From: Gammaproteobacteria bacterium
GTDB lineage: Bacteria; Pseudomonadota; Gammaproteobacteria; Pseudomonadales; Halieaceae
DNA length: 35,290 nucleotides
Assembly: GCA_030428835.1 (NCBI GenBank)
Contig: JAUIEP010000037.1
Location: 1-35,290 of the forward strand
Direction: 5' to 3'
In this document: piece by piece, positions 7,982 through 35,165 of the stretch
Layout: each line of letters opens with the position of its first letter
Numbering within the stretch: position 1 is the stretch's first letter
Made by a program: the position numbers and the translations under genes
Notes under the pieces: generated by a model
Databases searched by the model: none
Told to the model about the DNA's origin: nothing
The model's input: only the letters and a program-made list of their open reading frames with translations

Positions 7982-8020
7982 GTAGATGGTCCTGGTTCTT
8001 TGTGGCCCCGACGCGCCGGG

Positions 8021-9577
8021 TCAGGGTGGCTGGTGCATACCGATCGCCGGGTTGGCCGGTATCTCACTGCCGAAATAGTCCGCGGGCGGCACGTCCGGCA
8101 GGCCGAGGCCAGCCGCGATGGCGGGGGAGCCTGCGCGCAGCTTGAAGGCCTCGCCCGCATCGAGCCGTCCCGTGCCGCGCCAGGTAACGTCTTCAAACAA
8201 CGGTTCCTGTGCCACGAAGTTCGTGCCCGAGGGCGGCAGGTTGTAGAACAGGTTGTTGCTGCAGTTGTCGCCGCAGGCGAGCGGTTTGTCCTGCGGTATG
8301 GTCGCGTACACGATGTTGTTGGCGAACAGCATGTCGCCGGCATTGCCGATGGTGTCGAGGGGAATCGTCTCGAGTGCCGTCAATGGCCTCGCCGTGACAA
8401 ACGTGTTGTTGTAGATCTCGATGTCGTTGTGGGTGCCCAGGGTGGGAAACTTGCAGGGCGAGACGTTCAGCACCTTGCCGTCGTCAACGCTGAGGTTGTA
8501 GCGCACTATCCCGGTGTGGGGCTCGTCGTCGCTGCACAGTAGTATGAAGCCGCCCTCGTTGTTGTGGCTGTAGTTGTACTGGATGATGGTGCCTTCCTGC
8601 TCGTTGTCGATATCGAACCCGGTGCCGTCGCAGCCGTCGGTGGGGCTCTGCCCGAAGCGATAGTCGGAGACCTCGTTGTACTGGATGACGGCATTGATGG
8701 AATTCCACGTCCAGATGCCCGCGGCGCAGTTGCGCTCCGCACTCTGCCAGTCCCTGCCCGCGAGGTTGCCCGCGCGCACCACGTTGTGCTCCACGAGGGC
8801 GCCCGAGGTCCCGTGCACCACGATGCCGTCGCCCTGCAGCCGGCGCAGCGTGTTGCCGCGGATGACGATGTTCTGCCCGGCCGCGGGCCACGGCTCGTGC
8901 GCCCGGGGCCGTTCGCTGGTGCTCGCGGAGGTGGCGTCGAAGTAGATGCCGCTGCGGCCCACGTCCTCGATCAGGTTGTTTTCTATGAGCACGCCGTCGA
9001 ACTGGGTATCGGTGGTATCGAAGCGTGAATCCGAGGTGATGCCGCCGCCGCGCTTGGCGGTGCCGTTGAACGTGACCAGGCCGGTGACATCGTGGATATA
9101 CATGTCGCGTATGACAATGTTCTCGACCCTGGACTGCACCGCCAGCAGGTAGATGCCGCTGTGTGGTTCGGAGAGATTGCCCGGATTGGTGAGCTCGAGA
9201 TTCTCGACCACGAGGTGCGCCAGGTCCTCCAGCAGTACGGCGGCGCGGTGCATTCCCTGCGCGGCGATATGCGGCAGCGGCCCGTCGCCGTAGGCGCCGA
9301 TGAGCGCGGGGTGTTCCGCCGACCCGGCGCCGAGGGGTTGCAGCATGCCGTTACAGGTAGTCCCGCGCTTGAACAGCAGCCGGTCGCCCGGTGCGAGGAC
9401 GACGGCATTGGCATCCGACAGGTCGGACCACGGCGACTTCTTGGTACCGCTACCTGCGACCGCGGCGCTGCAGTCGACGTAGTACCGGGTACCGACGCCG
9501 TTGTCCGACGAACCATCGCTGCACGCGGCAACCGTCAGCGCTGCCAGCAGGCAGGCCAGGAGTGTTCTGAATGGCAT
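8021..9577 (-). CDS. Right-handed beta-helix (pectate-lyase fold) lipoprotein
   Basis: This is a 518-residue lipoprotein with signal LAALTVAAC (lipidated Cys19). After a YYVDCSAAVAGSGTKKSPW start comes a long series of parallel beta-helix rungs, with repeats such as IVIRGNTLRRL, ALVEHNVVRAG, AVIQYNEVSDY, TIIQYNYSHNNEGG and DIEIYNNTFV. This is the pattern of right-handed beta-helix polysaccharide-active proteins (PL6 or pectin-lyase-like folds). The end, ADYFGSEIPANPAIGMHQ, is typical of such secreted proteins. GAGGAG lies about 9 nt before the ATG. It heads a probable operon with DUF885. Polysaccharide binding or cleavage is likely, but I cannot assign catalytic residues or a sugar. Confidence 0.85.
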   Translation of the reverse strand: MPFRTLLACLLAALTVAACSDGSSDNGVGTRYYVDCSAAVAGSGTKKSPWSDLSDANAVVLAPGDRLLFKRGTTCNGMLQPLGAGSAEHPALIGAYGDGPLPHIAAQGMHRAAVLLEDLAHLVVENLELTNPGNLSEPHSGIYLLAVQSRVENIVIRDMYIHDVTGLVTFNGTAKRGGGITSDSRFDTTDTQFDGVLIENNLIEDVGRSGIYFDATSASTSERPRAHEPWPAAGQNIVIRGNTLRRLQGDGIVVHGTSGALVEHNVVRAGNLAGRDWQSAERNCAAGIWTWNSINAVIQYNEVSDYRFGQSPTDGCDGTGFDIDNEQEGTIIQYNYSHNNEGGFILLCSDDEPHTGIVRYNLSVDDGKVLNVSPCKFPTLGTHNDIEIYNNTFVTARPLTALETIPLDTIGNAGDMLFANNIVYATIPQDKPLACGDNCSNNLFYNLPPSGTNFVAQEPLFEDVTWRGTGRLDAGEAFKLRAGSPAIAAGLGLPDVPPADYFGSEIPANPAIGMHQPP

Positions 9578-9629
9578 GGGTTTACGGCTCCTCGGTGTTG
9601 TTTTATTTATGGCAGGCTGTGCGGAGACG

Positions 9630-10394
9630 TCACGGAATGAACTGTTCGTTGAGAATGCGCTCTTCGAGGTTGTGGTCGGAGTCGAACAGCAGGGTCACCT
9701 CGCGCTCCCGGTCGATACACACCTCGACTTCCGCGACGTTGCGCACCTCGTGCGCGTCCGCCACGGCGCTCACCGGCCGCTTGTAGTTGTCGAGGATGGT
9801 CAGCGTGATCTGCGTGTCCTCGGGCAGGATGGCGCCTTTCCAGCGGCGCGGGCGGAAGGCGCTGATCGGCGTCAGCGCGAGCACCCCGGAGCCGATCGGC
9901 AGAATGGGGCCGTGCGCCGACAGGTTGTAGGCGGTGCTGCCGGCCGGGGTGGCCACCAGGCAGCCGTCGCACATGAGTTTATCGATGCGCACCTTGCCGT
10001 CCACCGACACGCGGATGTTGGCCGCCTGGCGGGTCTGCCGCAGCAGCGAGACCTCGTTGTAGCCGTAGGAGTCCTGTTGCACGCCCGAATCCGTCGTCAC
10101 CCGCATGCGCAGGGGGCGCAGTTTCTCCTCGTGGGCGTTTTCCAGTCGCGCCTGCAGGTCGTCCATCTCGAAGGAATTGAGCAGGAAGCCCACGGTGCCG
10201 CGGTTCATCCCGTAGATGGGGCGGCCGTAGGTGACATTGCGGTGGATCGCCTCCAGCATGTAGCCGTCGCCGCCCAGCGCGACGATGACATCGGCCTCTT
10301 CCGGGCTCACGGATTCGTACTTTTCCGACAGCACCTGCAGGGCGTCCTGGGCGTCCGGGCCGCGGCTCGCGACGAAAGCAATCTTCTTGGTCAC
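9630..10394 (-). CDS. nadK: NAD kinase, short (alphaproteobacterial-like) form
   Basis: NAD kinase phosphorylates NAD to NADP. At 254 residues this is short for a gammaproteobacterial enzyme (about 290). The motifs are VALGGDGYML (GGDG at 41-44), the NE pair at 113-114, and CDGCLVATPAGSTAY at 142-156, the diagnostic NAD-binding signature. The opening VTKKIAFVASRGPDAQDAL and the SPEEADVIV phrase resemble the short enzymes of Alphaproteobacteria. The frame stays open far upstream (to 11102), but GTG 10394 has GAGGG at 7 nt spacing and gives the complete family N-terminus. The gene follows the lipase gene on the same strand with a 115-bp gap and probably has its own promoter. Confidence 0.93.
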   Translation of the reverse strand: MTKKIAFVASRGPDAQDALQVLSEKYESVSPEEADVIVALGGDGYMLEAIHRNVTYGRPIYGMNRGTVGFLLNSFEMDDLQARLENAHEEKLRPLRMRVTTDSGVQQDSYGYNEVSLLRQTRQAANIRVSVDGKVRIDKLMCDGCLVATPAGSTAYNLSAHGPILPIGSGVLALTPISAFRPRRWKGAILPEDTQITLTILDNYKRPVSAVADAHEVRNVAEVEVCIDREREVTLLFDSDHNLEERILNEQFIP

Positions 10395-10439
10395 TGTGTT
10401 TCCCTCAAGCCGGTGCGTCCGCACCTCGTCCGTGATCGG

Positions 10440-10449
10440 GTGTATACAC
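10440..10449. promoter_or_regulatory. Palindrome upstream of nadK
   Basis: GTGTATACAC is a perfect 10-bp palindrome 45 bp before the nadK start, in the only AT-rich patch of this gap. TTGACA also occurs upstream on the minus strand, but no well-spaced -10 is evident. It is a candidate operator or promoter element. Confidence 0.3.
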
Positions 10450-10509
10450 TGACTTAAGGTCCCGGATGTGTCAAAGCCCGCAGTCGGGTGTTTATCCGGG
10501 AGATGGCGC

Positions 10510-11790
10510 TCAGCGTCCGAGCCACGACTGCAGCTGGTCGAGCACCCTGCGGTCACCCAGCATGGCCAGGTGGCCGACGTTGTAGATGATGCGCGTGTGT
10601 TCGCGCGGGAAGTCCAGTGCGAAGTCCGGGTTGGCGTGCCTGCCGGTTGCACTGGCGGGGTGTACCAGGCCATCGCCCAGGAGCCTCCCCAGCCCGCTCC
10701 CGGGGCCCGCGGACAGCGTCCCGGCAAGCGCGTAGTGTTGTATGCCCGCCGCCAGCGGGATCGGCCTGCGCCTGTCGCTGTGATCCTCGTGCGCGTCGTG
10801 GTGTTGCCAGTCATCGTCGCAGACGTTGCCGTGCCGCAGGTCAGTGATGCCGGCGCTGCGCATCCTGCCCGGTGCCGCCAGCGGGGCGGTGTAGGGACTC
10901 CGGGTGAGGCCCTTCTGCAGCCAGAAGCCACCGCGTTCCAGGGCGGCCCCGTGATGTGGCGTGCCGATGTACACGGCCTTGTCCACCTTGTCGCGCCAGG
11001 CGTGGCCCTCCGTGTCGGCGGTGTGCAGCGCGCTGCGCACGACCAGGCCGCCCATGCTGAACCCGATGAGGGTGATGGATGCCACGGGCGTCGGCCAGGC
11101 ATCCAGCAGGCCGCTTACCTGCGCGCAGAGTTCGCGCCCGTTCGTCGATATGTGCCGGCCCGAGTTGTACAGGGCGTAAACCGGCGAGTAACCGAACTTT
11201 GCAGAGAGCGCCTCGGCGTGGTTGTGCTGGTCCGCTGTCCACTCGCGATCGTTCATGCACAGGCCGTGTACGAGGAGGAGGATGTGTCGGCCGGCTGCGA
11301 AACCGCTCTCGACCAGCGCTTGCGGGCGCGGGTGGATCTCCACCGGGCGCCTGGCCGTCTCGAACAGGCCGGAGAAGGGTGTCTTGCCGCTCCCGGTTGT
11401 CCGCCCGTCGTCATCCGGGCGCGGCAGGAACACGCGGAGCTGCATCGGGATCGCGAGCGGGTTGCCGCTGTTTTCGAAGTGATCGCCGCAGACGCCGTTC
11501 AGGGCGGCGACCACGGCCTCCCTGTGCGGGCCCGGTGGCGCCCCGCGATCCAGCAGCGGGGCCGCGCCGGCCAGGAGCGTTCGGGTGAAGCCGCGCGCGA
11601 GATGGTTCGCGCCCCGGATGGCGCTGTAGACGGAACCGGCGATGCCCTGCGCGGCGCCCCCGGGCGCGGCGCCGAGGGGCCACGGGGTGGCCGCGATGTT
11701 GCGGTGCATGTCCTCGACGATCCGTGTCGTGCCGCCGATCATGTCGAATACGAGGTCGGCGCCGCCTCGCACGGTCTTGCCGGTGTCCAT
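10510..11790 (-). CDS. Alpha/beta hydrolase, lipase-like
   Basis: This is a 426-residue hydrolase with the triacylglycerol-lipase-like pattern: LLLVHGLCMN at about 171-180 (HG oxyanion loop) and LIGFSMGGLV with nucleophile Ser245 in GFSMGG. Then come KAVYIGTPHHGA and a C-terminal IIYNVGHLAML, whose His is the likely catalytic base. The first 85 residues are unusual: a Gly/Ala-rich amphipathic segment (ADLVFDMIGGTTRIVEDMH and then GGAAQGIAGSVYSAIRGANH) and no clear signal peptide, so it may act in the cytoplasm or on a membrane or granule surface. The ATG overlaps the upstream TGA by 1 nt (TGATG), which sets the start and indicates coupling to the RHH/zinc-ribbon protein. The frame continues upstream to 11985, but that part is antiparallel noise inside the upstream gene. 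The lipid substrate is unknown. Confidence 0.88.
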   Translation of the reverse strand: MDTGKTVRGGADLVFDMIGGTTRIVEDMHRNIAATPWPLGAAPGGAAQGIAGSVYSAIRGANHLARGFTRTLLAGAAPLLDRGAPPGPHREAVVAALNGVCGDHFENSGNPLAIPMQLRVFLPRPDDDGRTTGSGKTPFSGLFETARRPVEIHPRPQALVESGFAAGRHILLLVHGLCMNDREWTADQHNHAEALSAKFGYSPVYALYNSGRHISTNGRELCAQVSGLLDAWPTPVASITLIGFSMGGLVVRSALHTADTEGHAWRDKVDKAVYIGTPHHGAALERGGFWLQKGLTRSPYTAPLAAPGRMRSAGITDLRHGNVCDDDWQHHDAHEDHSDRRRPIPLAAGIQHYALAGTLSAGPGSGLGRLLGDGLVHPASATGRHANPDFALDFPREHTRIIYNVGHLAMLGDRRVLDQLQSWLGR

Positions 11791-12254
11791 CAGTTTTCCC
11801 CCTCGTTCGGGTGTGCTTGCTCGACCGACGCTCCCGCGGCAGGCGACAGGTCCCCGAGGCAATCGAGGCAGAGCAGCGTCGGCCGGGGGCCGGGCGGCAG
11901 CCCAACCGCCGCGCGTTGTCCCTTCGGCAGGATCGTGTTGCACTGGTCGCAGACACCGTTCACGTTCAGGATGGCCTCCTGCCACCCGATGATCGCGGCG
12001 CCCGGCTCCGGTTCGTCCTGCACGGCGCGCCTGCCCGTGAAGACCCGTGCGATCTCGGAGCTGTCCGTGACGACGCCCTCGACCAGGTCAAACGTGTTCA
12101 GCAGGACGTTGCGCACGATGGTCGAGACCGACATGCCCAGTTGCTCCGCGCGGTCGCGAAGTTCCTCGTCGAGTTGCTCGGGTATGCGCGCCTGCAGCAC
12201 GCGATCCTTGGTCTGGCGGCGGGTGCCGCCCTGGCGTTTGCGGCTCTTTGGCAT
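11790..12254 (-). CDS. Ribbon-helix-helix protein with C-terminal zinc ribbon
   Basis: This is a 154-residue protein in two parts. Residues about 17-55 match a ribbon-helix-helix DNA-binding fold: DRVLQARIPEQLDEELRDRA forms the strand and first helix, then LGMSVSTIVRNVLLNTF. Residues 102-132 hold two CxxC pairs (Cys102, Cys105, Cys129, Cys132), giving a four-Cys zinc site. The N-terminus is very basic. GGAGG precedes the ATG. Directly upstream is an AT-rich gap with a palindrome and spaced repeats suited to RHH binding, so autoregulation is likely. It is coupled by TGATG to the lipase, whose expression it probably controls. I do not know a named family with this exact combination. Confidence 0.85.
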   Translation of the reverse strand: MPKSRKRQGGTRRQTKDRVLQARIPEQLDEELRDRAEQLGMSVSTIVRNVLLNTFDLVEGVVTDSSEIARVFTGRRAVQDEPEPGAAIIGWQEAILNVNGVCDQCNTILPKGQRAAVGLPPGPRPTLLCLDCLGDLSPAAGASVEQAHPNEGEN

Positions 12255-12308
12255 CGTGTGAACCTCCTGTTTGGGCAGGTCAGGCTGTGGGGCATACGCC
12301 CAGCTTAG

Positions 12309-12342
12309 TTACAATGTAATACAAATGTCAATTTATGTAATA
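12309..12342. promoter_or_regulatory. AT-rich operator/promoter region between the RHH gene and the kinase gene
   Basis: TTACAATGTAA at 12309-12319 is a palindrome around its central base. ATGTAATA occurs at 12314-12321 and again at 12335-12342, exactly 21 bp (two helical turns) apart. On the minus strand TTGACA sits at 12331-12326, a perfect -35 box pointing to the RHH gene, although the matching -10 is poor. This is the most AT-rich stretch for several kilobases. Repeated short sites in phase are what RHH dimers bind cooperatively. Confidence 0.55.
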
Positions 12343-12452
12343 TATCGCGTCGCGGCGAGCTTGCGCTGCCGCAAGGAAAACCGCCCCGAAACATGTTGCG
12401 ATACAGTGCAGTATCTCTCTCCCGCAACCCGGTGCCTCTGCCCGTGACGACA

Positions 12453-13505
12453 ATGAACACACCGCTTGGGCGAAACGCGCAGCACCTGGAGTGGCTGTGC
12501 GAACGGTTTGACCTGGGCAGGCCCCGGGGGGAACCCATCGCTGTCGCGGGCGGCTTCCACCACAGGATGTGGCGGCTGGACACCGGCGCGGGTGCCTTCG
12601 CGATCAAGCAGTTGGCCGACGACGTGGACGTCTGCGATGTCGCGACCCGCACGCGCCTGAATGCGACAGAGTCCGTGGCCGCGGCTTTCGCCGCGCTGGG
12701 CATACCGGCGCTGGCCTCCCTGTGTCGCGACGGCGAGCACCTGCAGGTGCTCGACGGCGGCGGCTACCTCGTATTCCCGTGGACGGACTGGCGGGCACGT
12801 GACAGGAACGCGATCGAGCCCTGTCACGCCCGGTGCGTCGCGCGCATACTCGCGCGGATGCACGGTGCGGACCTCCAGGTTGCCGGACTGGCCGGGCCCG
12901 CCACCTGGCCGCTCACGGCCGCGCGGCTGACCGACCTGCTCGAGCTCGCGCAGCGCAGGAACGTGCGCGAGGCGGACCACCTGCGCGGGCGCGTCGACGA
13001 CATCCTCGCCGTCGTCGAGCGCCAGGCGTCGGCGCAGTCGGTGCTGTCCGCGAGGAGCGTCGTGAGCCACGGCGACCTGGACCACAAGAACGTCCTGTGG
13101 GGGCCGGACGGGGAGCCGCTGCTGATCGACTGGGAGTCGGCCAGGCCGATCAACCCTACCTACGAGTTGCTGCTCGAGGCACTGGACTGGAGCGGTATCG
13201 CGGCGAACTTCGAGGTCGCGCCGTTTGACAACTTCCTCTCCGCCTACGTGCGGGAGGGCGGCGAGATTGACGCGGCGGCTGTCCCGGCGGCGTTCGACGC
13301 CATCCTGGGCGCCTGGGTCAACTGGATGCTGTATAACGTGGGCCGCGCGGCCGGCGTGGAAGACCTGCGCCAGCGCGCCATCGGCACGGAACAGATCGAC
13401 CTCGCCGTGAGCGCGCTGTTGCACCTGGAACGCAATATTCCCCGCCTCAAGGACATCGCCGGGCGACACGCCCGGCAACGCCCCCGGGAGCTGCGCCGTG
13501 TTTGA
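12453..13505 (+). CDS. APH/homoserine-kinase-like phosphotransferase
   Basis: This 350-residue protein has the APH fold. It shows GGFHHRMWRL (33-42), AIKQL with ATP-binding Lys52, VVSHGDLDHKNVLW with the catalytic loop HGD at 206-208 and Asn213, and LLIDWE with metal-binding Asp226. The GGFHHRMW start and lack of a signal peptide fit the homoserine kinase/SrkA-like branch of APH proteins, not drug-resistance enzymes. An in-frame ATG exists at 12393, but neither start has a good ribosome site; 12453 begins where family similarity begins. Its last 8 nt overlap the phosphatase gene, so the two are co-translated. The substrate (a small molecule, a sugar or protein serine) is unknown. Upstream is the AT-rich region shared with the RHH gene. 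Confidence 0.85.
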   Translation: MNTPLGRNAQHLEWLCERFDLGRPRGEPIAVAGGFHHRMWRLDTGAGAFAIKQLADDVDVCDVATRTRLNATESVAAAFAALGIPALASLCRDGEHLQVLDGGGYLVFPWTDWRARDRNAIEPCHARCVARILARMHGADLQVAGLAGPATWPLTAARLTDLLELAQRRNVREADHLRGRVDDILAVVERQASAQSVLSARSVVSHGDLDHKNVLWGPDGEPLLIDWESARPINPTYELLLEALDWSGIAANFEVAPFDNFLSAYVREGGEIDAAAVPAAFDAILGAWVNWMLYNVGRAAGVEDLRQRAIGTEQIDLAVSALLHLERNIPRLKDIAGRHARQRPRELRRV

Positions 13506-22835: not shown

Positions 22836-24815
22836 TCAGCGCCGGCTCGCCACCAGCGCGGTGAAGTACTCGTTCCAGCTCAGGGCGTCGTCGCCGTCGC
22901 GGTCCATGCGGTCGAAGAATTCCGCGATGCGACGGCCGGTGCGGCCCTTGAGCTCGCCGCGCTCCAGCACGCCGTCGATGTTGTCATCCAGCGCGCCGAA
23001 GCCGCGGCCGGCGTCCAGCAGTTCCTCGTATTGCGGCTTCTGGTTGTCGCGGGTCTCGTCCTTCCAGCGATAGCTGATGGCGGTGAACAACATCTCCTCG
23101 AACGACTGGTCGCCCCAGGTGATCTCCAGGTCGGGGTCCGGGTTGGCCGGGTTCTGCGCCGTGTTGTCATACGTGTAGCGCGCTATCAGCTTCGAGCCGG
23201 CGGGCACGTCGACGGGTTCGGTGAACTCGTAGGAGCGCTGCCAGTTGAAGTTGTACCTGGGCAGCGACAGCAGGAGTTTCTCGGAGCCGTCCGGGTAGCG
23301 GATCGTCAGCGTCGAGGACTGCCCGCGGTAGTGCGCGTGGGGAAACGCGTAGAACAGCTCGGCGTCCTTCGGGAACTGCAGGTAGGCGACCTCCTCGTGC
23401 CTGCCGGTGTTCGCCGGGATCCGGATCGACGAGTCCGCGATCACCGAACTCCTGGTCATCATCTGCGGCGGTTCGTCGTAGAAGTACAGGCCGATCTGCG
23501 TCGCGTCCGTGACCGCCTTGCCGAACGGTGTGTAGTGCATCTGCAGGCCGATCGCGCCGCCGGTCGGCAGGTAGGTGCCCACGTTGTCGCGCGCGATGAA
23601 TGATTCGGCGCCCACGGCGTAACCGCCGAGGGAGGCACCCCAGCGGGACTCGTTGCTGCGCCCGCTCGCGGGCATCTCCTTCAGCATGCCGGTGAGCACG
23701 TGGTGCACCGCCTCGCGCGAACCCACCTTGACCGTGCTGGCGCGCAGCCATTTGGGTTCGGTGAGGGGATTGGGGACGACCGGGCGCTGGTAGTCGACCA
23801 CGCCGCTTGCCGGCACGTCGAACGGCGGTATATCGATGATCAGGTCGGGCTCGCCCAGCGGCCAGTCGACGGGCGGCTCGCGCTTGACGGCGAGCGGGTC
23901 CGGGCCGTCGCCACGGGGCGCGCCGGCCTCTATCCAGTGCACCAGCGTCTTGATCTCGTCGCCGGTCATGCTGTAGTCGCGCAGGAAGCTGCCCACGTGC
24001 GGATCGGCGTTCCAGGGCGGCATGCGGTCGGTGCGGATCACCTCGCGGATCATGGCGGCAAAGCCCTTGACCATGTCGTAGTTGCTCATCGCCCAGGGCC
24101 CGATGCCGCCCTCGGTATGGCAGCTCACGCAGCGCTTCTCCAGCAGCGGGGCGATGGTGTCGTGGTAGGAGATCTTCGCGTGCTCCGCGCGACGCTCGCG
24201 CTCGGGGAACTGCACGATGCAGCCGGGTGCGTCCACCGCGGCGACGGCGACGTCCTCGCCCGCCAGCAGGTTGTCGAGCGCGGCGGCGAGGTAGTGTTCT
24301 TTCGCCCGGGGCTTCTGCACCTCGTAGGTGAGGCGATCGTCGATGGGCCCGTGGTAGACAACCCGCATGGTGGCGGGATCGATGACGTAGACTTCCGCGG
24401 TGCGTGTCACGTTGAGCGATTCGCCCACGAGCTGGTAGTCGTCCACCAGCACCGGTATGTCGAAGCCGAACTCCTGCGCCTCCGCGCGGATGCTTTGCGG
24501 GTCGTCCTGCAGGTTGGAGTTCAGCAGGAAGAACTGCACGCCCTTGCCGGCATAGGCGTCGCGCACCTCGCGGTAGGCGGGCATGGCATTGCGCACGATG
24601 GGGCAGCCGTTGCCCTGCGTCATCAACACGATGGCGGGTGCGTTCCTGTAGTAGTAAAGCTGGTGCGCGAAGCCGGTGTCGTCGACGAGCTGGAAGTCGT
24701 CGACGTGCATGCCGACAATGCCGTCGCTGGTGAGTGCCTGGGCGGCGCTGCCCAGTGTCGTGAGGAGCAGGGCGAGAACGATTGCGTGAATGCTCGGTAG
24801 CCGGGTGATTGTCAT
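22836..24815 (-). CDS. Exported redoxin / cytochrome c / type II copper monooxygenase / EF-hand fusion
   Basis: This 659-residue exported protein has a signal peptide at about 1-27. Residues about 30-185 form a thioredoxin-like redoxin domain with a single Cys in NGCPIVRN (Cys71). A heme c site follows, CVSCH at 229-233, with Met265 in RMPPW as likely sixth ligand. Residues about 320-590 look like the PHM/DBM copper monooxygenase pair of domains: HH at 371-372 and MHYTP (His427) for one copper, and HAHYRG (His493, His495) and EEM (Met575) for the other, so all six expected ligands are present. Two EF-hands end the protein (610-621 and 638-649). GAGGAGG before ATG 24815 fixes the start. The c-heme probably feeds electrons to copper. 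It is divergent from the secreted trio at 25039. Substrate unknown. Confidence 0.9.
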   Translation of the reverse strand: MTITRLPSIHAIVLALLLTTLGSAAQALTSDGIVGMHVDDFQLVDDTGFAHQLYYYRNAPAIVLMTQGNGCPIVRNAMPAYREVRDAYAGKGVQFFLLNSNLQDDPQSIRAEAQEFGFDIPVLVDDYQLVGESLNVTRTAEVYVIDPATMRVVYHGPIDDRLTYEVQKPRAKEHYLAAALDNLLAGEDVAVAAVDAPGCIVQFPERERRAEHAKISYHDTIAPLLEKRCVSCHTEGGIGPWAMSNYDMVKGFAAMIREVIRTDRMPPWNADPHVGSFLRDYSMTGDEIKTLVHWIEAGAPRGDGPDPLAVKREPPVDWPLGEPDLIIDIPPFDVPASGVVDYQRPVVPNPLTEPKWLRASTVKVGSREAVHHVLTGMLKEMPASGRSNESRWGASLGGYAVGAESFIARDNVGTYLPTGGAIGLQMHYTPFGKAVTDATQIGLYFYDEPPQMMTRSSVIADSSIRIPANTGRHEEVAYLQFPKDAELFYAFPHAHYRGQSSTLTIRYPDGSEKLLLSLPRYNFNWQRSYEFTEPVDVPAGSKLIARYTYDNTAQNPANPDPDLEITWGDQSFEEMLFTAISYRWKDETRDNQKPQYEELLDAGRGFGALDDNIDGVLERGELKGRTGRRIAEFFDRMDRDGDDALSWNEYFTALVASRR

Positions 24816-24835
24816 AGCGCCTCCTCGCAGCACTT

Positions 24836-24874
24836 GATTATCGACTCTACTTATTGGAAAGTGCGTTGATAATC
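24836..24874. promoter_or_regulatory. Spaced inverted repeat in the divergent copper-locus promoter
   Basis: GATTATC at 24836-24842 and GATAATC at 24868-24874 are exact inverted copies 32 bp apart, each preceded by TT. They flank an AT-rich patch (continuing to TATAAAAAA at about 24876-24884) just upstream of the minus-strand start at 24815. It is a candidate binding site plus promoter region. Confidence 0.4.
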
Positions 24875-25038
24875 GTATAAAAAACGAGCAAATGCCAGTT
24901 TCGGGCCCCGGGGTGCCGTGCCCCGCCCGCCCAGGCTGATCCACATCATCGTCCGTCGGCTGCCGTTGCGTGCCAGCCGTGTGCTTGTCGTCGGGGACCC
25001 TCCCGGCCAGTGCGGGCGTCGAAGGAGTCGAGTTGCCT

Positions 25039-25911
25039 ATGCGAACGTTTGTCCTTGCGGTGCTGTTCTGCCTGGCGTCCTGCGCTTCCGCTCCCGGTGG
25101 CGGCGGGCAATATGTCGCACCGCGCGGCCCGGGCGGTGTGCACCCGGATCTCAACGGCATCTGGCAGGCCCTCGGCGAGGCGCATTACGACCTCGAGCGG
25201 CACATGGCGCGCGCTTCCATGGCACTGCGCGAGGGCCCGCGTGGTCCCGTCCCCTCCGCCGGCACCGTCGCGCTGGGCACCGTGGTCGCGGTACCGCCGG
25301 GCCTCGGGGTGGTGGTGGACGAGGGCGAGGGCGACACCATTCCCTATACCGCCGAGGCGCTCGCGCTGCGCGATGCGAACCGCGCGGACTGGCTCGCGCG
25401 CGACCCGGAGATCAAGTGCTACCTGCCCGGCGTGCCCCGCGCGACGTACATGCCCTATCCGTTCCAGATCATCCAGGGCGACAACGACATCTTCTTTGCC
25501 TACCAGTACGCGGGCGCCGTGCGCAATATCTACAGCACAGACCCCGGGCCCGCGCCGCTGGACTCGTGGATGGGCCAGTCGGTGGCGAGCTGGGACGGCG
25601 ACACCCTGGTGCTGGAGGTGACCGGGCTGCTGGCGGACACCTGGCTGGACCGGGCCGGCAACCACCACTCCGAGCAGTTGCGCGTGGTGGAGCGCTTCAC
25701 GCCCATGGGACCGAACCACCTGTGGTATGAAGCCACCCTGGAAGACCCGAAGGTCTACACCCGGCCCTGGAAGATCGCACTGCCGCTGTACCGGCGCATG
25801 GAACCGGATTTCCAGCTGCTGGATTTCAAGTGCGTGGAATTCGTCGAGGAACTGTTTTACGGCAAGTGGCGCCGGCACCCGCTGGAAGGCGCCACGGGGG
25901 TAGAGAGATGA
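25039..25911 (+). CDS. Lipoprotein of a DLNG/DLSG secreted family
   Basis: This 290-residue lipoprotein has signal VLFCLASC (Cys15). The mature part starts with a Gly-rich linker and then HPDLNGIWQALGEAHYDLE, and shows YLPGVPRATYMPYPFQIIQ, SVASWDGDTLVLEVTGL, LRVVERFTPMGPNHLWYEATLEDPKVYTRPW. The same elements (PDLxGxW, GDTLVxE/D, VVERFT, DPxVxTxPW) recur in the next gene, so the two are related. Such proteins are widespread in proteobacteria and acidobacteria with no known function. ATG 25039 has AGGAG 11 nt upstream; an in-frame TTG at 25033 has closer spacing and is possible. Its stop overlaps the next start as ATGA. Confidence 0.8.
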   Translation: MRTFVLAVLFCLASCASAPGGGGQYVAPRGPGGVHPDLNGIWQALGEAHYDLERHMARASMALREGPRGPVPSAGTVALGTVVAVPPGLGVVVDEGEGDTIPYTAEALALRDANRADWLARDPEIKCYLPGVPRATYMPYPFQIIQGDNDIFFAYQYAGAVRNIYSTDPGPAPLDSWMGQSVASWDGDTLVLEVTGLLADTWLDRAGNHHSEQLRVVERFTPMGPNHLWYEATLEDPKVYTRPWKIALPLYRRMEPDFQLLDFKCVEFVEELFYGKWRRHPLEGATGVER

Positions 25912-26966
25912 GCCTGGAGAAGATCACGCTGTTGCTGTGCGCCTGCCTTGCCTGCAATACCTGGGCGGACATCCCGCGCACCGCGGACGGCAGGCCCGAC
26001 CTCAGCGGCAACTATGACCTGGCCACACTCACGCCGCTCGAGCGGCCGCAGGAGTTCGGCAACAACCTGTACCTCACGCCTGAGGAGGCGGAGCGGGCGA
26101 TGGCGCAGATGAAGGAGACCCTGGCGCAACTCGAGGCGACGAAGAACGACGACCCGGACCGCGAGGCACCGCCCGCGGGCGGCGACGGCGTCCTGGCCTT
26201 CGGCGCCGGCGGCGTGGGCGGCTACAACACGTTCTGGGTAGACCGCGGCGACGACGGCTTCGAGATCGACGGCAAATTCCGCACCTCCATCATCTACGAC
26301 CCGGAGAACGGCCGCCGGCCGCCGATGACGCCGCAGGGCATGCAGTTGATGCGGGAGCGCTTCGCGTCCTACACGAAGCCCAATACGGGCACCGCCTGGT
26401 GGCTGGAGGAGGGCGACGGCAGCGGCCCCTACGACAACCCCGAGGATCGCACCACGTCGGACCGCTGCCTGTCGGGGTTCGGCTCGACCGGTGGCCCGCC
26501 GATGCTGCCGATTCTCTACAACAACGTGAAGCGCATCGTGCAGACACCCGACACCGTGATGATCCTGGTGGAGATGGTGCACGACGCGCGCATCATCCGC
26601 CTGGACAGCGAGCATGTCGCGCCCGACATCCGCAAGTGGATGGGCGACTCCATCGGCTGGTGGGAGGGCGACACGCTGGTGGTCGACACCACCAACTTCA
26701 ACGACACGCCCGGCATGACCCGCGCCACGCGCGACCTGCACGTGGTGGAACGCTTCACGCGCATCGACGAGAACACGCTGCTGTACAACTTCACGGTGAC
26801 AGATCCCAACGTCTGGACCGAGCCGTGGAGCGGGGAATACCCCTGGCCGGCGACCGACCAGCCGGTCTACGAATACGCGTGCCACGAGGCCAACTACGCG
26901 ATGGGCGGCATCCTGCGCGGCGCGCGCCTGCTGGAGGCCGAAGCGCTCGAGGCGCAGGGCAGGTAG
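25908..26966 (+). CDS. Secreted DLSG-family protein of unknown function
   Basis: This is a 352-residue exported protein with a signal peptide at about 1-20 (LLCACLACNTWA). The mature N-terminus carries the family phrase ADGRPDLSGNYDLATLTPLERP, followed by LTPEEAERAMAQMKE. It continues with a Gly-rich loop, DRCLSGFGSTGGPPMLP, then IIRLDSEH, GWWEGDTLVVDTTNFND, LHVVERFTRIDENTLLYNFTV and TDPNVWTEPWSGEYPW. It is homologous over the C-terminal half to the preceding lipoprotein. ATGA overlap with that gene and GAGAG upstream set the start. Members often cluster with DUF6152 genes, as here. The function is unknown; the repeated beta-strand pattern and export suggest binding or catalysis in the periplasm. 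Confidence 0.8.
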   Translation: MSLEKITLLLCACLACNTWADIPRTADGRPDLSGNYDLATLTPLERPQEFGNNLYLTPEEAERAMAQMKETLAQLEATKNDDPDREAPPAGGDGVLAFGAGGVGGYNTFWVDRGDDGFEIDGKFRTSIIYDPENGRRPPMTPQGMQLMRERFASYTKPNTGTAWWLEEGDGSGPYDNPEDRTTSDRCLSGFGSTGGPPMLPILYNNVKRIVQTPDTVMILVEMVHDARIIRLDSEHVAPDIRKWMGDSIGWWEGDTLVVDTTNFNDTPGMTRATRDLHVVERFTRIDENTLLYNFTVTDPNVWTEPWSGEYPWPATDQPVYEYACHEANYAMGGILRGARLLEAEALEAQGR

Positions 26967-26999
26967 CGGGTGACATCGACTCGACAGGAGCAAGCGAGC

Positions 27000-27425
27000 A
27001 TGAACAGGATCCAGGTATTCACGGCGGCCGCGCTGCTGGCGGCAGCTTCGGCCTACCAGGCCGTCGCGCACCACGCGTTCTCGGCGGAGTTCGACCCCAA
27101 CCGGCCGCTGGTCCTGAAAGGGCCTGTTACGCGGGTGGAGTGGGTGAACCCGCACGCGTGGATTCACCTGGAGGTGACGAAGGAAGACGGCAGCACGGAG
27201 CAGTGGGCCGTGGAGGGCGGCACGCCAAACACGCTGCTGCGGCGGGGGATCAACCGCAACTCCATCAAGCCCGGCATCTACATCATCGTCGACGGCTACC
27301 AGAGCAAGGACCGCACGAACCGCGCCAACGGCCGCAACATCACCCTCGCCGACGGCCGCAAGCTGTTCATGGGCTCGTCGGGCACCGGGGCGCCGAAGGA
27401 CGGCGCCGACCCCACCGAGCGCTGA
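27000..27425 (+). CDS. DUF6152 family periplasmic protein
   Basis: This 141-residue exported protein has a signal peptide of about 23 residues ending AYQAVA. Predicted cleavage leaves a mature protein starting His24-His25 (HHAFSAEFDPNRP). The family signature continues with GPVTRVEWVNPHAWIHLEV (His52 and His56), GGTPNTLLRRG, and IIVDGYQSKDRTNRANGRNITL. DUF6152 has no established function. The N-terminal His plus the NPHAW His resemble copper histidine-brace arrangements, and the neighbouring divergent gene encodes a copper monooxygenase, so copper binding is a reasonable inference. AGGAG at 26986-26990 sits 9 nt before ATG. It lies 33 bp after the preceding gene, forming a three-gene operon. 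Confidence 0.88.
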   Translation: MNRIQVFTAAALLAAASAYQAVAHHAFSAEFDPNRPLVLKGPVTRVEWVNPHAWIHLEVTKEDGSTEQWAVEGGTPNTLLRRGINRNSIKPGIYIIVDGYQSKDRTNRANGRNITLADGRKLFMGSSGTGAPKDGADPTER

Positions 27426-31362: not shown

Positions 31363-33249
31363 TCACCAGGCGGACCTGCCCAGCAGCGCGAACCCGGCCC
31401 AGTTCTTTGCTGCCGGGTACTTCGCGCGCGTGGCCAACATCGCGCTGCGCAGCGCCGCCGCCGGCTGCTCGCCCGCGTCGAGCCGCGTGTAGAACGCGTC
31501 CATCAGGTAGACGGTCTGCTGGTCCGGCAGTGACCACAGCGATATCACCACGCTGGGCACACCCGCCGCCATGAAGGCGCGGGCGATGCCGACCACGCCC
31601 TCCGCGGCTACCCGCCCGCGCGCCGTGTCGCAGGCACTCAGGACGGCGAGGCCCGCGTTCAGTTGCAGCCCGGCAACGCGGCGGGCGCTCAGGAAGCCGT
31701 TGATGTCCCCCGGCGGCGCCAGCGCGAGCAGGCCCGGGTAATCGATGCGCGCGACCCGTTCGTTCGCCGCGGCCACGTTCGCGCGCACGCCGCCGATGGA
31801 GACGCCCTTGCCCATGACGATGGCGCCGCTGTTGATGACCACGTTGTTCTTGCGGGCGATGGATTCCTGCGTGCGCGGCACGAACCCGAACTCGTTCACC
31901 CCGGCGTCGTAGTCGAACAGCCCGTGCGTGGCGAAATGCAGCAGCGTGCGTTGCTCGATGCCGTCCAGCACGGCGCCGAGCGTCGCCGCGTCCTTCAGCA
32001 GCGGCGTGGCGCCCAGCCGGTTCGCGATGAGCGCGGCTTCGAGCTCGGCGCCCTGCAGGCCCGCGAGCGGAACGGCGCGACCCTCTGCGTTGCGCAGGCT
32101 GGGCATGGGCGTCGGGTTGCCGATGATGAGCGGGTTGGCGCGCCAGTTGTCGCCCTGCGCGGCGCGCGCCACCAGTTGCGCGTGGGCGCTCAGCGAGGGG
32201 GCGAAAGTGAGCACGTAGCGGTCGATCAGCATCGTGCCCTGCGCGTCGCTGAACACGGCGAAGGGCATGAGGTGCAGCGCGCTGTCGGCCACCACGAGCA
32301 GGGGCTGCGCCGCGCCCCGCGGCAGCGCGTCCAGCACCGGCTCGATCAGGAGCCGGTGCAGCAGGGGGAAGGTCTGGTTCGCCCGTTCCGTGTTCCTGCC
32401 CAGCGCGATCAGGCGGCGCGTTTTACTCGCCAACTCGTTGAGCGGGTAGCGACCGTACTCTGCGTGCAGCGGCCGCAGGTCAACGACCTCGTGCGTGATG
32501 TCCCCCTTCGGGGTGATGACCCAGATATAGAGCCACGACTGCCCCTCCTGCTCCACGCTGTCCACGCGCAGTTCGCGCCCGGTGACCGAGTAGTAGAGAA
32601 TCGTGGTACCGACGCGGCGGGCGAGCGCCCTGATCCGCTCCGCGTCGAGGAACCCGTCCCGCTCCGCGCCCAGGAAGCGCTCGACCAGCGAGCGCGCCCG
32701 GGTCTGTTCGGCGATCTCCAGCGCGCGCAGCGGCTCGCCGCGCTGCATGGCGATCTGCTGCGCGAGGCGGTACGCGTGCCCCTGTTGCTCGAGCAGTGTC
32801 AGCCGGTCGATCTCGTCCCGCGACGGCTTCGCGCGCAGCGCGTCCCAGTGCCTGATCGCCCGCTCGATGGACGCCTGTGCCGCCTCGAGTTGGCCGGTGC
32901 TGAAATAGGCGAAGGCGAGGCTCGCGGTCAGGCCGGCGTCGATGGGCTCGGCGGCGTCCGCCTGCTCCAGCGCCTCGATGGCCTGCTCGAAGCGCTCTTC
33001 CTTCAGGTGCACCTTGCCGATACCGGTGTAGGCCTCGGCAACCCGGGCCGGCGCGGCCCGCGTGGCGAGCGACTCCCGGTACAGCGCGAGCGCGCGCGGG
33101 TAGTCCCCCGCGCGATAGGCATCGCGGGCCTGCGCCAGCGTGTCCGCCCGGGCAGGTAGCGTTGCTGTGCCACACACCAGTACCAGCAGTGCGACGACAA
33201 CAGCCTTCACCAGAGGGAAGTCCGCGTGCAGGGAACCGGTCGCGCGCAT
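31363..33249 (-). CDS. TPR-CHAT caspase-like protease, exported
   Basis: This 628-residue protein begins with a likely signal or anchor segment (KAVVVALLVLVCGTATLPARA, residues 15-35). TPR-like helices cover about 36-190 (ARDAYRAGDYPRALALYRES and AEAYTGIGKVHLKEERFEQA). A CHAT domain from about 215 to the end has the caspase-type dyad: HFATHG with His442 and LSACDT with Cys540. About 97 residues separate the two, longer than usual, because of a Val/Asn/Ala-rich insert around 450-510. The ending SLWSLPDQQTVYLMDAFYTRL and NWAGFALLG is typical. The ATG overlaps the asparagine synthetase TGA by 1 nt (TGATG), so the pair is coupled. CHAT proteins are proteases in regulated cleavage systems; no target is evident here, and no CRISPR is nearby. 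Confidence 0.9.
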   Translation of the reverse strand: MRATGSLHADFPLVKAVVVALLVLVCGTATLPARADTLAQARDAYRAGDYPRALALYRESLATRAAPARVAEAYTGIGKVHLKEERFEQAIEALEQADAAEPIDAGLTASLAFAYFSTGQLEAAQASIERAIRHWDALRAKPSRDEIDRLTLLEQQGHAYRLAQQIAMQRGEPLRALEIAEQTRARSLVERFLGAERDGFLDAERIRALARRVGTTILYYSVTGRELRVDSVEQEGQSWLYIWVITPKGDITHEVVDLRPLHAEYGRYPLNELASKTRRLIALGRNTERANQTFPLLHRLLIEPVLDALPRGAAQPLLVVADSALHLMPFAVFSDAQGTMLIDRYVLTFAPSLSAHAQLVARAAQGDNWRANPLIIGNPTPMPSLRNAEGRAVPLAGLQGAELEAALIANRLGATPLLKDAATLGAVLDGIEQRTLLHFATHGLFDYDAGVNEFGFVPRTQESIARKNNVVINSGAIVMGKGVSIGGVRANVAAANERVARIDYPGLLALAPPGDINGFLSARRVAGLQLNAGLAVLSACDTARGRVAAEGVVGIARAFMAAGVPSVVISLWSLPDQQTVYLMDAFYTRLDAGEQPAAALRSAMLATRAKYPAAKNWAGFALLGRSAW

Positions 33250-35165
33250 CAACTCATCCCGAACTTCTCGTGCATCACGACGACGCTCGCTATGCGCTGC
33301 AGTCCGCCCTCGACAGCGATGCGCTGGTCCTCGGGGCAGTCCAGCAACCGGTCGACGGCGGCGTTCACCTTGTCCATGTCGTACATGGGCTGTTCGCGCG
33401 CGGCCCGCGAGGCGAAGGTGTCGCGGTAGAAGGTGAGCATGGGGTCGTGCGCCGCGCGGGTGGGGGGTGTCGTGAAAGGGTGTTTCTGGCGGTCGTAGAC
33501 CTCGGGGATCAGCACATCCCGCGCGGCCTCGCGCAGTACGTGTTTCTCGCGGATGCCCTGCACCTTCATGTCCACGGGCACGCGCGCGCACACTTCGGCC
33601 ACGCGGTGGTCGAGGAACGGGACGCGGCCCTCTATCGAGTGCGCCATCTCCATGCGGTCACCGAGGTAGACCAGTATGAAGTTCGGCAGCGCCGTCTTCG
33701 AATGGATGTACAGCGCCTGGTTGAGGGGGTCGCGGCCGGCGACGCGCTGCGCGAGCGGCATGCGATCCAGGGCCGCGATGACGCCGCTGTAGCCGTTCAC
33801 GTGGGCCGCGTAGTCCGCGGTGAAGAACGCCGAGAGGCCGTCGGCCATCGACGCCATCGTGTTGATCGTGGTGGGCACCCAGCCCAGCCTCTGCTGCGCC
33901 GCACCCAGGACGGGGCCGGTCACCTGCTGCGGCAGCATGATGGCGCGGCTGGCCTCGTTGGCGCCGACGATCTCGTCCAGCAGCGCCGCCTTCTCGGCCT
34001 CGCCCAGGGCCGGGTTGTGCTTGACGGCGTCCACGCGGAAGAACGGGTAGCCGCCCAGCATTTCGTCGGCGCCCTCTCCAGTGAACACCACCTTGATGCC
34101 GGCATCGCGCACAGCCCTGCTCAACAGGTACTTGGCCACGCCGTGGCCGTTGAACATCTGGGTCTCCGCGTGCCACAGCGCATCCGCGTAGGCGTCGGCC
34201 ACCTCCCGTCCGGTGATGGGGATAGGGTGGTACGAGGCCCCGACGAACTCTGCCTGCTTGCGTGCTATCGCGGCCTCGTCGAACAGCGGGTTGTCGAACG
34301 TGAGTGTGAACGCCCGTATCGGCCGTTCGATACCCTGTTGCGCCAGGCCCAGCACGGCGCAGGAGTCGATGCCGCCGCTCAGGTAGGAGGCCACCTCGAC
34401 ATCGGCCACCAGCCGCTGTTGTACGGCGTCCACCAGTGCATCGCGAAAGTCGGCGACCACCTCGGCCGGCGTGCGCGTGTCGCGCCGCAGTTCGTCCGCG
34501 GTGGGCATCTCCCAGTCCCAGTACGGGTAGATGCGTACCGCGCCGTCCCGGGCAATGGCGTAACAACCCTGCGGCACCGTGCCGATGCCCTCGAAATCCG
34601 TCTGTTCGTGGGGGCGCGACATGCCGGCGATGGCGCCCCGCAGGTCCCACCGGGCCGGCACGCCCAGGGCCAGCAGCGCCTTGATCTCGGAGGCGAAGAA
34701 CACGTCGCCGTTGTGCACCGAGTAGTACAGCGGTTTTATGCCGAAGCGGTCGCGGATGGCGATCATGGCGCCGTCCCGCTCGTCGGCGATGATCGCGGCG
34801 AATTCGCCGCGCAGTTCGGTCGCGGCCTGCATGCCGCGCTGCCGGTACAGGTGCAGCGCGATTTCGCTGTCGCTGTCGGTCGCGAAGCGACAGCCTTCCG
34901 AACGAAGCCGTTCGCGGATGTCCCGGTAGCCGTAGAACTCGCCGTTGACGACCATGTGCAGGGTGTTGTCCGCGCTCGACATCGGCTGGCGGCCGTTGTC
35001 CAGGCCGATGATGGACAGCCGGGTGTGGCCCAGGACCCAGCGCCCGTCGGCGGACGTCCAGGTGCCGTGACCGTCGGGGCCGCGGTGCTGCAGTACGTCG
35101 AGCGCCCGATCGATGCGCTGCGCCGAAATGCCGTTACGGGTCATCGCCGCGAAGATGCCACACAT
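33249..35165 (-). CDS. asnB: Asparagine synthase (glutamine-hydrolysing) family protein
   Basis: This 638-residue enzyme has an N-terminal class II glutamine amidotransferase domain starting MCGIF (Cys2 nucleophile), with HTRLSI and NGEFYGY for glutamine handling. The synthase domain has the ATP pyrophosphatase P-loop LSGGIDS at 262-268, and later FTGEGADEMLGGYPFF and GRVPFLDHRVAE. All hallmark residues are intact, so it could convert aspartate to asparagine. Equally, the family includes amidotransferases acting on peptides or cell-surface polymers. Its tight coupling (TGATG) to an exported CHAT protease is unexpected for housekeeping AsnB. The 125 bp beyond the start codon hold a short stem (GCGGCA/TGCCGC near 35243-35257) and no evident gene. 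Confidence 0.92.
   Translation of the reverse strand: MCGIFAAMTRNGISAQRIDRALDVLQHRGPDGHGTWTSADGRWVLGHTRLSIIGLDNGRQPMSSADNTLHMVVNGEFYGYRDIRERLRSEGCRFATDSDSEIALHLYRQRGMQAATELRGEFAAIIADERDGAMIAIRDRFGIKPLYYSVHNGDVFFASEIKALLALGVPARWDLRGAIAGMSRPHEQTDFEGIGTVPQGCYAIARDGAVRIYPYWDWEMPTADELRRDTRTPAEVVADFRDALVDAVQQRLVADVEVASYLSGGIDSCAVLGLAQQGIERPIRAFTLTFDNPLFDEAAIARKQAEFVGASYHPIPITGREVADAYADALWHAETQMFNGHGVAKYLLSRAVRDAGIKVVFTGEGADEMLGGYPFFRVDAVKHNPALGEAEKAALLDEIVGANEASRAIMLPQQVTGPVLGAAQQRLGWVPTTINTMASMADGLSAFFTADYAAHVNGYSGVIAALDRMPLAQRVAGRDPLNQALYIHSKTALPNFILVYLGDRMEMAHSIEGRVPFLDHRVAEVCARVPVDMKVQGIREKHVLREAARDVLIPEVYDRQKHPFTTPPTRAAHDPMLTFYRDTFASRAAREQPMYDMDKVNAAVDRLLDCPEDQRIAVEGGLQRIASVVVMHEKFGMS

Follow-up and report, generated by a model that had tools for sequence, protein, structure and literature searches.

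A predicted exported fusion of redoxin, cytochrome c, and a PHM/DBM-type copper domain beside a divergent DLSG–DUF6152 operon in a Halieaceae bacterium

Introduction

PHM and DBM carry out hydroxylation at a methionine-bound copper, drawing electrons from ascorbate as a separate source. One article (PMC8812541) portrays PHM as an enzyme found widely among eukaryotes. We analyzed a 35,290-nucleotide stretch of DNA from a gammaproteobacterium of the family Halieaceae (assembly GCA_030428835.1, contig JAUIEP010000037.1, positions 1–35,290; hereafter the window), in which one gene joins a redoxin, a c-type cytochrome, a PHM/DBM-type copper domain, and a pair of EF-hands. On the opposite strand, a tight operon encodes two related secreted proteins, DLSG1 and DLSG2, and a DUF6152 protein. 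The locus had been described before from the DNA letters and their translations (the original prediction); its coordinates and the anatomy given for the fusion and the operon hold, the number of redoxin cysteines apart.

Results

The fusion gene occupies positions 22836–24815 of the minus strand and encodes 659 amino acids, which run from a predicted signal peptide through a redoxin and a c-type cytochrome to a PHM/DBM-type dicopper domain and a pair of EF-hands. Its N-terminus is signal-peptide-like and, judged by eye, ends in AQA at residue 27. An upstream ATG opens an alternative frame of 774 amino acids; we favor the start at 24815, where GAGGAGG stands in front of the ATG and the signal-peptide-like stretch follows. 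The original prediction had proposed structure prediction as a check, and an AlphaFold2 model built from an alignment of 37 sequences (the window protein and 36 relatives) reached a predicted local distance difference test score (pLDDT) of 88.5 and a predicted template modeling (TM) score of 0.86. When this model was compared with the PDB using Foldseek, the top-ranked matches were PHM (3mll, 1.6e-15) and human DBH (4zel, 3.8e-15), with TM scores on the target of up to 0.69, and stand-alone redoxins were also retrieved (3u5r, 6.6e-13; 2cvb, 2.6e-12). The copper domain is thus predicted to adopt the PHM/DBM fold.

The copper domain covers residues 303–592 (23040–23909, minus strand), an assignment drawn from Foldseek, a profile match to DBH, Cu2_monoox_C, and ligand conservation. 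The six PHM/DBM-type ligands named beforehand (His371, His372, His427, His493, His495, and Met575) are present and follow the order HH...H...HxH...M. By analogy, His371, His372, and His427 would form a CuH-like site, and His493, His495, and Met575 a CuM-like site. A profile of the copper domain only (23 sequences) reached DBH at E 1.5e-4, and its alignment places His427, His493, and His495 opposite DBH histidines. His371, His372, and Met575 lie outside that alignment; they are assigned as putative ligands from the motif and the predicted fold. Of 23 members scanned, 22 matched Cu2_monoox_C with E values no higher than 0.01, counting by E value and not by gathering cut-off. Likeness to PHM and DBM consists of the predicted fold, the ligand order, and three histidines in DBH register. 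In contrast, identity in structural alignments is 15–18%, the Pfam N-terminal Cu monooxygenase domain gave no match on the fusion, and the fusion is bacterial, exported, and joined to heme c, redoxin, and EF-hand regions.

Preceding the copper domain is a c-type cytochrome domain (residues 212–300; 23916–24182, minus strand). The heme site of the original prediction, CVSCH, lies at residues 229–233 (24117–24131), and Met265 is a candidate axial ligand; heme is predicted from sequence to attach at the CxxCH motif with this distal methionine. Conservation was assessed on 82 distinct full-length proteins, including that of the window, after 13 partial sequences had been dropped and duplicates removed. 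All six copper ligands are invariant in this set (82/82), as are Cys229, Cys232, and His233 of the CxxCH motif and Met265. A smaller set of 56 returned the same invariant residues with a single gap at Met575. That CxxCH and Met265 never vary among 82 proteins carrying the copper ligands lends indirect support to the earlier proposal that the fused heme is a built-in electron donor. Because these ligands are invariant while the thiol pair and the EF-hands vary, heme and copper form the core of the fusion, to judge from the alignment, and the other elements are optional.

The redoxin domain (residues 34–205; 24201–24716, minus strand) matches Pfam AhpC-TSA at 1.8e-9, above the Pfam cut-off, and PDB 3u5r at 4.2e-14; its predicted thioredoxin-like fold and the two cysteines described below place it in the PRX_like1 type. 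It had been described as a single-cysteine redoxin, which proved wrong. Besides Cys71, the domain holds Cys199 at its C-terminal end, aligned with the cysteine of the GC(N/T/S)IKW motif in three stand-alone relatives of known structure. Both cysteines are found in 39 of the 82 proteins and neither in 43, with no mixed case. Together, the alignment of Cys199 and its joint presence or absence with Cys71 rule out the single-cysteine reading. In a quick tree for these 82 proteins, inferred solely from alignment columns of the cytochrome and copper domains and flagged for some long branches, the state of the pair changes at least eight times. The pattern across these sequences marks the thiol pair as a co-inherited unit that has been repeatedly abandoned or regained while the redoxin fold was kept. 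The stand-alone redoxins 3u5r, 2cvb/2ywo, and 2ywi are 27–28% identical in structural alignments, with both fusion cysteines aligned. The fusion differs from them in carrying its redoxin as an N-terminal domain, the cysteines of which are absent in 43 of the 82 proteins.

At the C-terminus, two canonical-looking EF-hand loops were read in the sequence (residues 602–654; 22854–23012, minus strand), DDNIDGVLERGE and DRDGDDALSWNE, the second with D in place of the usual G. Pfam EF-hand models score far under cut-off on the fusion (EF-hand_7, 14.2 bits vs 30). A regular expression found at least one loop in 60 of the 82 proteins and none in 22, at least two of which (L043 and L057) run off the end of a contig; the loop state changes at least three times on the quick tree. 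The loops of the original prediction are thus seen in the sequence, and the calcium control ascribed to them is weakened by the 22 proteins that show no loop. A lanthanide EF-hand was set aside, as the lanmodulin model matched at E 0.019 (15 bits vs 135) and the loops lack Pro at position 2, the residue by which lanmodulin is recognized.

A second pairing of heme and copper was found in the same genome. On contig C298 (locus L006), an 858-amino-acid paralog contains cytochrome c and Cu2_monoox_C domains, both above Pfam cut-offs. Its heme–copper pairing resembles that of the fusion, with matched stretches 29–34% identical, and, unlike the fusion, it shows no redoxin or EF-hand match. Frames similar to this protein occur in several congeners.

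Transcribed away from the fusion is the trio. DLSG1 (290 amino acids; 25039–25911, plus strand) is a predicted secreted protein with a lipobox-like LASC, DLSG2 (352 amino acids; 25908–26966, plus strand) is a related secreted protein (phmmer, 8.7e-12), and the DUF6152 protein (141 amino acids; 27000–27425, plus strand) matches PF19649 at 2.4e-34 with 117.8 bits, above the gathering score of 27. DLSG1 and DLSG2 overlap by 4 base pairs, and 33 base pairs separate DLSG2 from DUF6152, so the tight divergent operon of two related secreted proteins and DUF6152 is real. The intergenic region between the fusion and DLSG1 measures 223 base pairs (24816–25038), and no sigma-70-like site was found within it. 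This region also contains TTGATTATCG (24834) and TTGATAATCG (24866), 32 base pairs apart from start to start; within 24834–24875, GATTATC/GATAATC form a 7-base-pair inverted repeat, noted by eye, which may be an operator.

Searches of Pfam and NCBIfam that admitted E values as high as 1 assigned neither DLSG1 nor DLSG2 to a family. AlphaFold2 gave no usable model of DLSG2 (five sequences, pLDDT 47.8), and the best Foldseek matches, fatty-acid-binding barrels at E 0.018 with none under 0.001, are not usable as evidence. The DUF6152 protein is predicted to begin, once mature, with His-His (AVA|HHAF, the cleavage site judged by eye) and also contains NPHAWIH. In 15 of 15 distinct relatives from fetched loci, a signal-peptide-like stretch closes with A (12) or G (3) immediately ahead of HH, and an NPH(A/S)WIH motif comes after it; all but one of these relatives were read by regular expression, and the remaining one, with a short N-terminus, from an alignment. 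Of the roles proposed earlier for the trio, substrate binding or copper handling, the predicted N-terminal His-His would favor metal binding, at a candidate copper site of the CopC/LPMO-like kind. DUF6152-like copies are numerous in six genomes (G274, G294, G312, G059, G098, and G305), each with at least 13 matches and between 27 and 57 first-look candidates. Viral contigs yielded no relatives of DLSG2 or DUF6152. Among plasmids, the fusion matched four records, in the redoxin region only, and DLSG2 matched two weakly.

The trio is also part of a larger module, composed of DLSG1, DLSG2, DUF6152, two DUF6644 membrane proteins, and often a cytochrome lipoprotein and HupE. In the same genome, contig C143 (L140, 1–11346) carries a cassette of a pyrroloquinoline quinone (PQQ) dehydrogenase, DLSG1, DLSG2, DUF6152, and two DUF6644 genes. 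The opposite strand carries HupE_UreJ_2 and frames for anchor-like and cytochrome-lipoprotein-like proteins, and L140 also includes a TonB receptor. The dehydrogenase matches PF01011 at 1.1e-226; the nearest NCBIfam model is the membrane-bound glucose/quinate family, at 684 bits vs a cut-off of 833. Compared with the window, the cassette has the same trio in the same order, with the PQQ dehydrogenase where the window has the copper enzyme; the DUF6644, HupE, and cytochrome-lipoprotein-like genes are absent beside the window trio, and both DUF6644 genes found in this genome are those on C143. The arrangement is repeated in two congeners (L144 and L145), with no HupE or cytochrome-lipoprotein frame found in L145. 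Its presence behind a PQQ dehydrogenase shows that the module is not tied to a copper enzyme.

A further variant occurs in L143 (genome G022), where the five-gene module converges with genes for a redoxin, a CKACH lipoprotein, HupE (identified by likeness to that of L140), and a small anchor-like protein (6925–12998), and no copper domain was found in that stretch. The stand-alone redoxin is 58% identical to residues 12–207 of the fusion and keeps both cysteines; the CKACH lipoprotein is cytochrome c'-like at E 2.7e-4, below cut-off. That redoxin and cytochrome are separate genes here and fused elsewhere is a hint that they may serve as electron or thiol partners. Parts of the same gene set are held by L146, L147, L151, and L156, and the DUF6644 pair only by L148 and L149. 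One His is invariant in each DUF6644 protein (12/12 for DUF6644a and 11/11 for DUF6644b) and lies, to the eye, within a hydrophobic stretch. DUF6644b also matches UPF0093 weakly (E 0.0068, below cut-off). UPF0093 kin are heme-binding membrane proteins, and the match suggests a kinship that we treat as a lead only.

The window's genome holds, besides the window copy, a full fusion paralog on C283 and partial copies at the ends of contigs C308 and C317. The partial genes (C308:7–987 and C317:3–875) are perhaps one gene split by assembly. Relatives were matched at E 1e-3 in 25 of 57 genomes, this one included, a count that also takes in redoxin-only and cytochrome–copper proteins. A scan of genome contigs located 43 fusion loci, of which 33 are in Alphaproteobacteria (Hyphomonadaceae, Caulobacteraceae, and unplaced), 3 in Pseudomonadales or OM182, and 2 in Gemmataceae, with 5 unplaced.

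The original prediction had also proposed a survey of co-occurrence, which we ran across 293 genomes of the order at thresholds of E 1e-60 for the fusion, E 1e-30 for DLSG1 and DLSG2, and E 1e-10 for DUF6152. The fusion was detected in 22 genomes, DLSG2 in 21, DLSG1 in 21, and DUF6152 in 27, and each of the three was present in 17 of the fusion's 22 genomes. At the genus level (118 sampled), the fusion was found in 11, DLSG2 in 9, and both in 7 (Fisher p 2e-7; deeper relatedness remains in this figure). Fusion and trio thus co-occur beyond chance, so the lack of co-occurrence that had been named as refuting the original prediction was not borne out. DUF6644 was present in 14 of 20 chosen genomes. 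The trio lies beside the fusion in divergent orientation in the window, G189, G290, and G138 (the last at a contig end) and in the same direction in L037. These trio-adjacent fusions fall in three clades of the quick tree, with G138, G189, and G290 belonging to one genus.

A fixed gene neighborhood around the fusion was rejected, as neighbors vary across the 61 loci compared; the exceptions are clade-specific blocks, the trio, and one MMPL-type frame. The neighbors of the fusion in the window that encode a TonB receptor, PALP, and membrane proteins were also discarded as partners, since a comparison of 17 loci showed recurrence only of distant TonB-like frames (24–30% identity). An MMPL/Patched-type transporter frame stands beside the fusion in seven loci, including L073, L074 (10833–13148, the one scanned with Pfam), and L075, which hints at a lipid-like substrate.

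Elsewhere in the window, positions 8021–9577 (minus strand) encode a right-handed beta-helix protein that matches NosD at 6.3e-6. At 31363–35165 (minus strand), a TPR-CHAT frame stands beside an asparagine synthase-like gene; the two frames overlap at 33249–33591, and the CHAT start is probably later.

Discussion

With moderate confidence, we read the fusion as a probable periplasmic, self-wired copper C–H hydroxylase, reduced via its fused heme and served by a redox/metal module that another oxidoreductase can also use. O2 and substrate would be activated at the Met-containing copper site, and electrons would reach copper through the fused heme, from a periplasmic cytochrome or the quinol pool, replacing ascorbate. 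The redoxin pair may tune the redox state or copper loading, in a regulatory or protective role that involves no turnover with substrate, while Ca2+ would stiffen the C-terminus, making the EF-hands structural. The module, in turn, would link an oxidoreductase in the periplasm to the membrane, as well as providing metal or hydrophobic substrate.

Several results weigh against this reading. On the window fusion, Cytochrome_CBB3 matched at 4.5e-5 with 24.1 bits, below the Pfam cut-off of 27, and Cu2_monoox_C reached 19.3 bits (21.1 for the copper domain alone), below the cut-off of 23. Owing to the latter score, we treat the copper domain as a divergent variant and not as a plain PHM/DBM member; despite these scores, the predicted fold and the invariant ligands support both domains. 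The phylum sample contained the fusion in only 2 of 299 genomes, one of them the window's own. Five fusion genomes of the order survey (G012, G028, G120, G166, and G190) have no DLSG2 match and are also among the six chosen genomes without DUF6644; conversely, DLSG2 occurs without the fusion in four. Contiguous trios were fetched at 13 loci (the window, L037, L121–L123, L135, L137, L138, L140, L143–L145, and L152): five have the fusion, three, all of one genus, have the PQQ dehydrogenase, and five have neither, although L137 shows a weaker PQQ-like frame 4.5 kb off the trio. Among the 43 genome-contig loci, some on short contigs, the full trio adjoins the fusion in one and DLSG2 does so in a second (L048); in the order survey, the trio adjoins it in at least 4 of the 22 fusion genomes, among the matches listed. 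Fusion loci of at least 8 kb include the trio in 5 of 61 and a DLSG2-like gene in 6, and three of those five were selected because DLSG2 had already been detected there. The nearest fusion relatives (G034, L059, L065, and both G285 copies) show no trio in the stretches fetched.

The sparse adjacency and the five trio loci with neither enzyme are also what one would expect if the trio had no working link to the fusion, the numerous DLSG and DUF6152 genes having come to lie there by chance or shared ancestry. Both families are multi-copy in some genomes, with up to 57 (DUF6152) and 62 (DLSG1) first-look candidates per genome, mostly unscored. We nevertheless consider this explanation unlikely, given that adjacency recurs in three fusion clades and two arrangements and that co-occurrence extends over 17 genomes and 7 genera, genome relatedness being only partly removed at the genus level.

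PQQ dehydrogenases give electrons away, and because one of them shares the module we keep the opposite electron direction as a rival, in which the copper domain is an oxidase or dehydrogenase passing substrate electrons out through the fused heme. An invariant heme motif would suit this scheme as well. However, the known six-ligand enzymes of the PHM/DBM fold are O2-using hydroxylases that need a reductant, and we know of no dehydrogenase with this fold; we judge the outward direction rather improbable. That the fusion is instead a copper/redox sensor or copper store, with the redoxin and EF-hands reporting conditions, would fit the variable cysteine pair and EF-hands and a metal-binding DUF6152, but is very unlikely, as the six catalytic-type ligands, methionine included, are invariant, as one would expect of catalysis at both sites, and a Pfam scan of the fusion found no sensor output domain.

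The copper hydroxylase reading can be extended, more tentatively, to a general periplasmic oxidation platform, in which one conserved module accepts unrelated catalysts, here a PQQ dehydrogenase and there a copper hydroxylase, and PHM/DBM chemistry runs on respiratory electrons without ascorbate. We regard this extension as possible but doubtful. Its module would consist of DLSG1, DLSG2, DUF6152 with a putative N-terminal-His copper site, the DUF6644 pair with its conserved His, the cytochrome lipoprotein, and HupE. A literature search, with most subscription journals outside its coverage, returned nothing on the fusion and no DUF6644 among the matches listed, and no paper mentioning DUF6152.

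The catalytic core of the fusion is of the known PHM/DBM type; its wiring and gene company are not. A bacterial family with six copper ligands and a fused heme motif offers a route to study how electrons are supplied to two distant coppers. The module is also a first functional context for two families to which Pfam assigns no function, DUF6152 and DUF6644, and for the family-less DLSG proteins. If the platform reading is true, animal-type copper hydroxylation would take place in bacteria, with the electron-delivery domains carried by the catalyst itself.

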